From: Deltaproteobacteria bacterium
GTDB taxonomy: Bacteria > Myxococcota_A > UBA9160 > SMWR01
Assembly: GCA_019313245.1 (NCBI GenBank)
Contig: JAFDBP010000051.1
Location: forward strand, 1-36,075
Length of the DNA stretch: 36,075 nucleotides
Direction: 5' to 3'
Shown: one piece after another, positions 12,341 through 14,342 of the stretch
How positions within the stretch are numbered: the stretch's first letter is position 1
Layout: every line of letters begins with the position of its first letter
Position numbers and translations under genes: made by a program
The notes under the pieces: generated by a model
The model's database searches: none
The model's input: the letters and a program-made list of their open reading frames with translations, nothing else
Told to the model about the DNA's origin: nothing

Positions 12341-13561
12341 TCAGATCGCCCTCAGCGCTTGTTCGAGATCCGCGATCAGGTCCTCGGCGTCTTCGATGCC
12401 GCACGCCAGGCGCACCAGCGAATCCGTGATCCCCAGTTCGAGGCGCTCTGCGGGTTTCAGATCCCAGTAGGAGATCAGCGCGGGCATTTCGATCAGGCTC
12501 TCGACGCCGCCGAGACTCGCGGCGATGTAGGGGATGCGGCACGCGTCGACGAAGCGGCAGGTGCCGTCGAAGTCCGCGTCGAGATCGAAGGTCACCACGC
12601 CGCCGCAGCCCCGCATCAATCGGCGCGCCGTCGCGCAATCCGGATGGCTCTCGAGTCCCGGATACCAGACGCGCTTCACCGCGGGGTTGGCTTCGAGCCA
12701 GCGCGCCAGCTGCAGCGCGTTGTCGTTGTGCTTCTGCATGCGCAGCGAGAGGGTCTTGAGGCCGCGCAGCAATAGATAGGCGGAATGCGGGTCGAGAATG
12801 CCGCCGAGCATGCCGGCCGCTTCGCGAACCGGCGCGATCGCGTCGGCGGATCCGAGCACCACACCGGCCAACAGGTCGTTGTGACCGCCGAGGTACTTGG
12901 TCGCGCTGTGGATTGCGTAGTCGGCCCCCCATTCGAGCGGCCGCTGGCAGAGCGGGGTCGCAAACGTCGAGTCGATCACGACCTTCGCGCCGCGCGCGTG
13001 CGCGATTTCGGCCGCCTTCGGCAGGTCGATCACGCGCAGGTAGGGGTTCGTCGGGGATTCCGTGAAGAAGATCGCGCTGTCGTCGCGCAATGCGCTCGCG
13101 AGCTTGTCGGTATCCGCGGGTTCGATCACCGTGGCCTCGACATCCAGCTTGACGAGATGGTTCTCGATGAATTGACGCGTGCGCCGGTAGCAGTCGCTCG
13201 TGATCACCAGGTGCCCGCCCTTGGGCAGCAGTGCGAAGAAGAGCGTGGTGGCGGCGCACATTCCGCTCGCGAAGAGCACGGCCTCTTCGGCGCCCTCCAG
13301 ATCGCAGAGTTTGCGCTCGACCGCGCGCCAGGTGGGATTGCTGTAGCGGCCGTATTCGTCGCGCTTGAGTCGGCCCTCCTGCAACGCGCGAAGTTCCGCA
13401 GAATTCTCGAACCAGTAGGTCGAGGTCTGGTAGATCGGAGTCGTGACCGCGTGGCTGCTCTGGTCGTCGCGCTCGCCGCGGTGCACGGCCCGAGTCGAAT
13501 CCCCAGCGCTCTTCGTCTGTTCGTCGGCCGCCACGTCGTCGCGGCGGGATCCATCGCTCAT
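12341..13561 (-). CDS. metB: Cystathionine gamma-synthase (plant-like), PLP-dependent
   Basis: A 406-residue Cys/Met-metabolism PLP enzyme. The PLP lysine is K222 in HSATKYLGGHND. The cofactor-binding segments YGRYSNPT, ASGMCA and FFTESPTNPYLRVIDL are present. The phrases GMCAATTLFFALLPKGGH and TSDCYRRTRQFIE resemble plant plastid cystathionine gamma-synthase more than E. coli MetB, as I remember those sequences. The expected reaction joins an activated homoserine with cysteine to form cystathionine in methionine synthesis. Cystathionine gamma-lyase and O-acylhomoserine sulfhydrylase are the alternatives in this fold. The N-terminal ~30 residues are a charged extension. The upstream region has a well-formed promoter and a possible SAM-responsive leader, which supports a methionine-pathway role. 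Confidence 0.88.
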   Translation of the reverse strand: MSDGSRRDDVAADEQTKSAGDSTRAVHRGERDDQSSHAVTTPIYQTSTYWFENSAELRALQEGRLKRDEYGRYSNPTWRAVERKLCDLEGAEEAVLFASGMCAATTLFFALLPKGGHLVITSDCYRRTRQFIENHLVKLDVEATVIEPADTDKLASALRDDSAIFFTESPTNPYLRVIDLPKAAEIAHARGAKVVIDSTFATPLCQRPLEWGADYAIHSATKYLGGHNDLLAGVVLGSADAIAPVREAAGMLGGILDPHSAYLLLRGLKTLSLRMQKHNDNALQLARWLEANPAVKRVWYPGLESHPDCATARRLMRGCGGVVTFDLDADFDGTCRFVDACRIPYIAASLGGVESLIEMPALISYWDLKPAERLELGITDSLVRLACGIEDAEDLIADLEQALRAI

Positions 13562-13578
13562 ATTCAGTCTCGTGTCAT

Positions 13579-13650
13579 GGCGCTTAGCAGGTCGGGCGCG
13601 GATCCCTCAGGAGGTCCGAGAGGCTTGCAAGCGCCGGAAATCGCCCGGTG
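13579..13650 (-). promoter_or_regulatory. Possible SAM-II-type riboswitch in the metB leader
   Basis: On the minus strand the leader reads GGGC-GATTT-CC, then GGCGC-TT-GCA (13635-13626), then AGCCT. About 30 nt later comes TGC-TAA-GCGCC (13589-13579). GGCGC pairs perfectly with GCGCC and GCA with TGC, leaving TT opposite TAA. This is the split pseudoknot helix around conserved U's and the GCTAA(A) strand known for SAM-II. GATTT and TTGCA are also SAM-II signature strings. Deviations: the P1 stem is only about 4 bp (GGGC with GCCT), TAA replaces TAAA, and loop 3 holds an extra small hairpin (CTCGG/CTGAG). A 6-bp alternative pairing, CGGGCG with CGCCCG (13647-13642 with 13598-13593), is possible. 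A 4-codon open frame (13578-13564) follows directly and precedes the metB ATG. Confidence 0.45.
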
Positions 13651-13671: not shown

Positions 13672-13700
13672 AGCCTAGGAACGGGAGTCGCCCGCGTCAA
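13672..13700 (-). promoter_or_regulatory. Sigma-70-like promoter of metB
   Basis: On the minus strand TTGACG (13700-13695) is separated by 17 bp from TAGGCT (13677-13672). A start near 13665 would give a leader of about 104 nt that contains the whole possible riboswitch. It lies in the gap between the sulfotransferase end and metB. Confidence 0.65.
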
Positions 13701-13724: not shown

Positions 13725-14342
13725 TCAGCCGTCGCTGCGATTGCGGTAGAGGCTGCTGTCGACCGCAGCTCGCATTGCGGCCTCGTCGAGGTGGCCACCC
13801 ACGAATGCGTTGACACTGCGCGCGGTCGCGGCGGGGTCTTCGATCGTGCGCTTGTAGTTGACCTCGATCAATTCGAAGTTCGGGCGGTTCTTGCACAGCA
13901 GTCGCGTGCGCACGATGTCGTTTCGGTAGGCCTCTTTCATCGCCTCTTCCGCGGCGGTCGCGTCCTCGGTTCCGAGGCGTTCGATCATCTTGTTCTGGCT
14001 GGCCAACACTTCGTCGAGGTTGCGCCGCATGAAGATGACCCGGTAGTCGTTGTCGTCCGGAAGATCCTTGATCAGGAAGGAGATCACCTTGAGCACCTTG
14101 CCGCGCCCCTCTCGGATGTAGCTCTTGTCGCTCTCCTTCTCGAGATCCTTGACGCGCTCGTACTCGAAGTAGCCCTTCGGGTTGTCGATGTCGGCGACGC
14201 GCTCGCTGTCGGTCATGATCTGCATGCCGCCGGCGTCGAGCATCTTCATCAACATCGAGGTTCCCGAGCGCGGCAGGCCGCTGACGATGACGATGGGTTC
14301 GCCCTGGGGTCGGCGAAACGCGCGTTTGAAGAATTCGAACAT
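13725..14342 (-). CDS. Sulfotransferase-family protein
   Basis: A 205-residue protein with a 5'-phosphosulfate-binding P-loop at 22-29 (GLPRSGTS, after the strand IVIVS). The segment YRVIFMRRNLDEVLASQNKM, with a basic pair followed by xDExxAS, matches the 3'-phosphate-binding region of PAPS-dependent sulfotransferases. Family members transfer sulfate from PAPS to sugars, lipids or tyrosine. This one is short, with no membrane segment and no signal peptide, so it is probably cytoplasmic. It is the last gene of a five-gene run with AlkP-superfamily hydrolases, 20 bp after the membrane protein. The acceptor is unknown. P-loop kinases are a less likely alternative, because the SGTS loop and the MRRN segment fit sulfotransferases better. 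Confidence 0.8.
   Translation of the reverse strand: MFEFFKRAFRRPQGEPIVIVSGLPRSGTSMLMKMLDAGGMQIMTDSERVADIDNPKGYFEYERVKDLEKESDKSYIREGRGKVLKVISFLIKDLPDDNDYRVIFMRRNLDEVLASQNKMIERLGTEDATAAEEAMKEAYRNDIVRTRLLCKNRPNFELIEVNYKRTIEDPAATARSVNAFVGGHLDEAAMRAAVDSSLYRNRSDG

Follow-up and report, generated by a model that had tools for sequence, protein, structure and literature searches.

The minus strand of the window (the whole stretch of 36,075 nucleotides analyzed here) carries at 13646-13579 an H-type pseudoknot with the layout of the SAM-II and SAM-V riboswitches, located 5′ of a cystathionine gamma-synthase-like gene (12341-13561). Judged from its letters, the element very probably works like a SAM-II/SAM-V riboswitch, and it is probably an undescribed relative of these sensors in which the binding site has been consistently rebuilt. 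The original prediction of a divergent SAM-II-type riboswitch was right as regards the architecture and most of the core letters (GAUUU, UUG, the bulged U and AA), and all of the blocks that it named, including the pairing of GGCGC with GCGCC and of GCA with TGC, were located on the minus strand (Table 1).

Table 1. Parts of the element, its expression signals and its target gene (positions of the window; pairing refers to 41 aligned leaders)
Feature	Positions	Strand	Basis or remark
Promoter −35-like hexamer TTGACG	13695..13700	-	read in sequence; TTGAC similarly placed in 48/66 leaders
Promoter −10-like hexamer TAGGCT	13672..13677	-	17 nt after the −35; similar by eye in many leaders; not consensus
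P1 5′ strand GGGC	13643..13646	-	P1 pairs in 90.6% of cells; two-sided changes in 3/4 pairs
GAUUU (GATTT), third strand	13638..13642	-	in all leaders selected (part of the selection pattern); role by analogy with an excerpt of PMC6061858
CC linker; its first C corresponds to G11 of SAM-II/V	13636..13637	-	first letter C 67/67; second C 43, A 24
P2 5′ strand GGCGC-UU-GCA	13626..13635	-	P2 pairs in 99.3% of cells
P1 3′ strand GCCU	13621..13624	-	pairing over aligned leaders
Loop 3 hairpin (P3-like)	13599..13618	-	predicted fold of loop 3 alone
P2 3′ strand UGC-U-AA-GCGCC	13579..13589	-	bulged U (as U47) at 13586; G at 13583 in the place of A50
Shine-Dalgarno-like CGAGA	13568..13572	-	read in sequence; GAGAG-like letters by eye in many near-start leaders
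Cystathionine gamma-synthase-like PLP enzyme gene, 406 residues	12341..13561	-	start codon at 13561; PF01053 440 bits; 1i41 430 bits

The leaders were selected with a pattern that fixed GATTT, TTGC and GCTAAG and did not require the paired letters to pair. Pairing was tested over 41 of the 47 block-carrying leaders of orthologous genes, the six with the longest loops being left out. P2 (10 pairs around a bulged U) was paired in 99.3% of cells and P1 (4 pairs) in 90.6%; when the alignments were slid by 1-3 columns, 26-50% were paired over both helices. Two-sided changes were found in 7 of the 14 pairs, a number reached by none of 500 shuffles, and the variants of P2 included GGCGC/GCGCC, GGCAC/GTGCC, GGTGC/GCACC, GACGC/GCGTC, GCCGC/GCGGC, GGGGT/GCCCC and GGTAC/GTACC. 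Simple parsimony on a protein tree covering 39 of the 67 leaders assigned 12 two-sided changes to P2 and 10 to P1, and changes to unpaired letters numbered 2 and 9, respectively. In 12 of 40 rows the letters of the second P1 pair do not match, and are mostly A-C; in the window P1 is weak, as had been noted before, with 4 pairs of which one is G-U. Both helices are thus backed by compensatory changes, and the pseudoknot is conserved. Chance, which the original prediction had kept as a possible origin of the motif, is excluded by its presence upstream of orthologs together with this covariation.

An additional helix, in which the conserved CGGGU close to the presumed start of transcription would pair with CCCGA upstream of UGC, was considered and rejected (mean own pairing 4.80 vs 4.84 for exchanged partners); this exchange-type test is insensitive, giving for P1 only a small excess that 11 of 300 shuffles reached. 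CGGGUUCGAA (window about 13667-13655), likewise close to the presumed start of transcription, is kept at the same place in many leaders. Folding of the window leader with a program unable to make pseudoknots revealed no special stability (z 0.98).

Orthologs of the cystathionine gamma-synthase-like gene were present in 52 of 60 near genomes. Their leaders were obtained from 49 genomes, 30 at first and 19 added (one of the 20 added regions repeats genome G075), and 47 of the 49 carried the blocks. The covariance model built on the 41 leaders, R1, matched 68 of the 79 genomes of the window's order at E<=0.1, and the weakest match (G009, E 0.03) was confirmed as the element by reading its leader (L029). 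Four further genomes (G055, G058, G059 and G060) contain the element with a much longer loop 3, so that 72 of 79 carry it; G056, in which only the 3′ half is present at a contig end, was not counted. Of the six genomes without any RNA trace, four lack a close ortholog (the proteins of G006 and G074 are only 39% and 37% identical, and G001 and G027 have no ortholog at 1e-60). In the two others, G012 and G075 (leaders L064/L166 and L035/L070), the ortholog is present and the RNA was not found. The DNA upstream of the G012 ortholog looks coding by eye.

Beyond the order, R1 at E<=0.01 found nothing in 298 genomes of the phylum; all of the 67 matching genomes (out of 377) lie inside the window's order. 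A pattern scan of named genomes yielded 45 places. The element is present at 37 of them: at 35 the ortholog lies downstream, and two (L073 and L105) are at contig ends. The element-bearing group appears there among records labeled Myxococcota, Myxococcales or Deltaproteobacteria, including the isolate UBA9160, from which the order itself is taken to be UBA9160; the remaining 8 places, in other bacteria, look like chance. Weak matches were also obtained in 16 of 289 genomes of the class of G378 (Paracaedibacteraceae; best E 4e-4). None of the six that were read had the whole set of blocks, and one of these (L186) resembles, by eye, the opposite strand of a chemoreceptor gene.

Canonical SAM-II elements occur in the same order too (L001, and just below the cut-off L002, L003 and L005), before other genes, which indicates that the variant is not merely the order's own form of SAM-II. 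The SAM-II-like elements of the latter three loci scored 28-32 bits (cut-off 36). In each of these loci (L002, 1501-1852; L003, 1225-1576, minus strand; L005, 1237-1594) the SAM-II-like element is followed by a SAM-I/IV element scoring above its own cut-off, and the long frame that follows in L002 and L005 encodes an AAA ATPase (PF07728), an unexpected target. A second SAM-II copy after the first one in L001 was not supported.

Every copy of the element with readable downstream DNA precedes a cystathionine gamma-synthase-like ortholog; this count excludes the copy in G045 and three truncated ones, L073, L105 and L146 (the second copy in G033). In the window, the 406-residue product is a PLP enzyme of Cys/Met metabolism (PF01053), and its best solved relative is the cystathionine gamma-synthase 1i41, which we take to be a plant enzyme; the next, a methionine gamma-lyase, scored 326 bits. 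The protein scored under the cut-off of every NCBIfam model listed, so that cystathionine gamma-synthase is only its putative activity. In plants, SAM represses the mRNA of cystathionine gamma-synthase via the nascent peptide; plants and the bacterium of the window may therefore use unrelated means to put the same enzyme under SAM control at the mRNA level. The same-strand gene upstream of the leader (13725-14342, minus strand) matches the sulfotransferase families PF13469 and PF00685.

The letters of the presumed pocket can be compared with the SAM-V crystal, as described in an excerpt of PMC6061858. In that structure U47 pairs with the adenine, the sulfonium is faced by the triple U20:A48.U9, U19:A49.U10 forms another triple, and the amino-acid group is held by A50, which is paired to A18; the SAM-II site is reported there to be virtually identical. 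The element retains the three U of the third strand, U19, U20, U47, A48 and A49. Position 11 is C in 67 of 67 leaders, and position 18 is C in 63 (U in 3, G in 1). With no constraint on the letter following GCTAA, 30 leaders yielded 23 that could be parsed, all with G, and the 20 that were added yielded 18, of which 17 had G; in the eighteenth (L063) a nearer chance GCTAA had been matched, and its site further on has G. Judged by sequence, the constant differences (C11, and G50 paired with C18) sit at the part of the SAM-V site that binds the amino-acid end of SAM. The A noted as missing from GCTAAA is better read as a G (GCTAAG) at a now-paired position of a closed helix; the sequence alone cannot tell deletion of one A from substitution, and either way the inner loop that contacts the amino acid is closed into the helix.

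Among RF00521 loci, 28 of 30 could be parsed, with A50 in 28 and G11 in 27. Of the 22 RF01726 loci, 20 have A50, which a script found in 15 and reading by eye in 5; the others have U (L243) or G (L247), also read by eye. A50 thus has exceptions in the wider group. L247, a weak match to SAM-II long loops (39.2 bits, below the cut-off), has G50 together with A18, and is a possible intermediate.

The extra hairpin noted earlier in loop 3 does exist as a predicted fold. Such hairpins are predicted in most leaders when loop 3 is folded singly, and they differ in shape, place and length; the stretch from TTGC to GCTAAG varies from 19 to 126 nt (67 leaders). The last 10 nt of loop 3 have a mean A content of 0.19 in the 67 leaders, vs 0.61 in 30 RF00521 loci and 0.72 in 21 of the 22 RF01726 loci. 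According to the excerpt of PMC6061858, A residues of the SAM-V loop 3 dock on P1.

The good promoter of the original prediction was not recovered by a strict promoter scan, which found none; nevertheless, TTGACG-17-TAGGCT is readable at 13700-13672 (minus strand), and TTGAC occurs 47-61 nt before GATTT in 45 of 66 leaders and 84-85 nt before it in 3 more, i.e. in 48 of 66 vs 2.3 expected. This placement puts the probable start of transcription some 20 nt upstream of GATTT. Start codons were assigned in 53 of the 67 leaders and none in the other 14. The distance from P2 to the start codon is 5-25 nt in 36 of the 53, 33-38 nt in 3 and 50-188 nt in 14, and a purine-rich ribosome site follows P2. 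T-rich tracts of the kind that a terminator would need were found within 200 nt in only 3 of 67 leaders, and for this reason a terminator platform is not favored. The near-start group fits an OFF switch that blocks the ribosome. As for the far-start leaders (50-188 nt), translation may be controlled at a distance, by analogy with a Sinorhizobium SAM-II riboswitch for which such control is reported in an excerpt of PMC9373788. Directly after P2 there is a five-codon frame (ATG ACA CGA GAC TGA; 13578-13564, minus strand), which is probably meaningless, as AAG replaces ATG in three relatives (L022-L024).

Taken together, the element is probably a SAM-sensing OFF switch acting in cis on translation initiation, a sister of SAM-II and SAM-V. 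P1 and P2 form the H-type pseudoknot. The pair next to U19-A49 is a closed C18-G50, with which the invariant C11 might, as a guess, make a C+.G-C triple, and the amino-acid end of SAM would be held differently than in SAM-II/V. Binding of SAM would clamp the pseudoknot a few nucleotides upstream of the ribosome site, and plentiful SAM would thereby lower translation of cystathionine gamma-synthase. We base this reading on the conservation in 72 of 79 genomes, the two-sided pair changes, the core letters shared with SAM-II/V, the methionine-pathway target in every case read and the joint occurrence of RNA and gene; control at the level of translation is suggested by the short distance from P2 to the start codon and the rarity of T-rich tracts. 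Against it we count G50 in place of A50, C11 in place of G11, the loss of the A-rich end of loop 3, the length and mostly G-C pairs of P2, which may let it form without ligand, the 14 distant starts, the z value of 0.98 of the window leader and the two genomes with the gene and no RNA.

The changed pocket leaves room for either a new binding mode or another ligand. If C18-G50 and C11 remove the amino-acid subsite, the same fold could sense another adenosyl or sulfonium compound; both constant changes lie at or next to this subsite of SAM-V, and for another SAM aptamer there is a close variant that senses spermidine, according to an excerpt of PMC10853860. We regard this as unlikely, because genes of the methionine pathway, to which the target belongs, usually respond to SAM, and the adenine and sulfonium contacts are kept. 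Still less probable is an ordinary, divergent SAM-II with the usual pocket, in which the change of A to G is tolerated drift. The architecture is the same and position 50 does vary in the two RF01726 matches read by eye (one of them below the cut-off), but C11 is found in 67 of 67 leaders and G50 throughout, whereas almost every canonical locus examined has G11 and A50, loop 3 differs, the R1 and RF00521 models miss each other's members at E<=10 (four canonical loci of the order, and 20 loci plus the window, respectively), and drift would not stay constant over 11 families. A structured leader bound by a protein instead of a metabolite would also fit the constant unpaired letters and the single target gene; however, these letters are the ligand-contact letters of SAM-II/V, with which a protein site need not coincide, and we consider this very improbable.

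A SAM-sensing switch on translation initiation is therefore the reading that we prefer. A bolder proposal, which we advance tentatively and with some doubt, is that the element represents a new class of riboswitches built on the SAM-II/V scaffold. A set of coordinated changes (C11, G50-C18 and the lost A-rich end of loop 3) would have replaced the half of the pocket that binds the amino acid, so that SAM would be held anew, possibly by a pH-sensitive C+.G-C triple, or another adenosyl or sulfonium compound would be sensed. SAM-II and SAM-V share one binding site with contacts known from crystals, and the element provides a naturally conserved set of which half is fixed differently. With one short RNA it becomes testable which base contacts the amino-acid end of SAM, and whether this contact can be exchanged while SAM is kept.

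The element also adds an RNA family missed by the Rfam models tried. Neither the window nor 20 further loci matched any Rfam SAM family at E<=10, the covariance models RF00521, RF01726 and RF01826 included, and R1 matched none of the four canonical SAM-II loci of the same order at E<=10. A literature search on SAM-II/SAM-V variants, newer SAM classes and Myxococcota/UBA9160, which left most subscription journals uncovered, revealed no description of the element and no riboswitch paper for the window's order. By model score, pocket letters and loop 3, the element is not a member of RF00521, RF01726 or RF01826.

With SAM-II (RF00521, SAM_alpha) the element shares the H-type pseudoknot, the GAUUU third strand, the CUUGC and GCUAA strands and a methionine-synthesis target. 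It differs in that GAUUU is followed by C (67 of 67) and not by G (27 of 28 SAM-II loci), GCUAAA with A50 (28 of 28 parsed) is replaced by GCUAAG, P2 is closed without the inner loop, the end of loop 3 is not A-rich, and nearly all leaders lack a terminator. SAM-II long loops (RF01726) have the same core and a longer loop 3, and their weak member L247 also has G50; in contrast to the element, they have an A-rich loop 3 end, G11 and mostly A50, and were found here in Bacteroidota-type genomes. SAM-V (RF01826) likewise has a short P1 and probable control of translation, and its loop 3 hairpin may have a counterpart in the hairpins predicted in most leaders, but its consensus is UUUG and CUAAA, as opposed to UUUC and CUAAG, and its Shine-Dalgarno sequence lies in P2a (excerpt of PMC6061858), whereas the ribosome site of the element follows P2.
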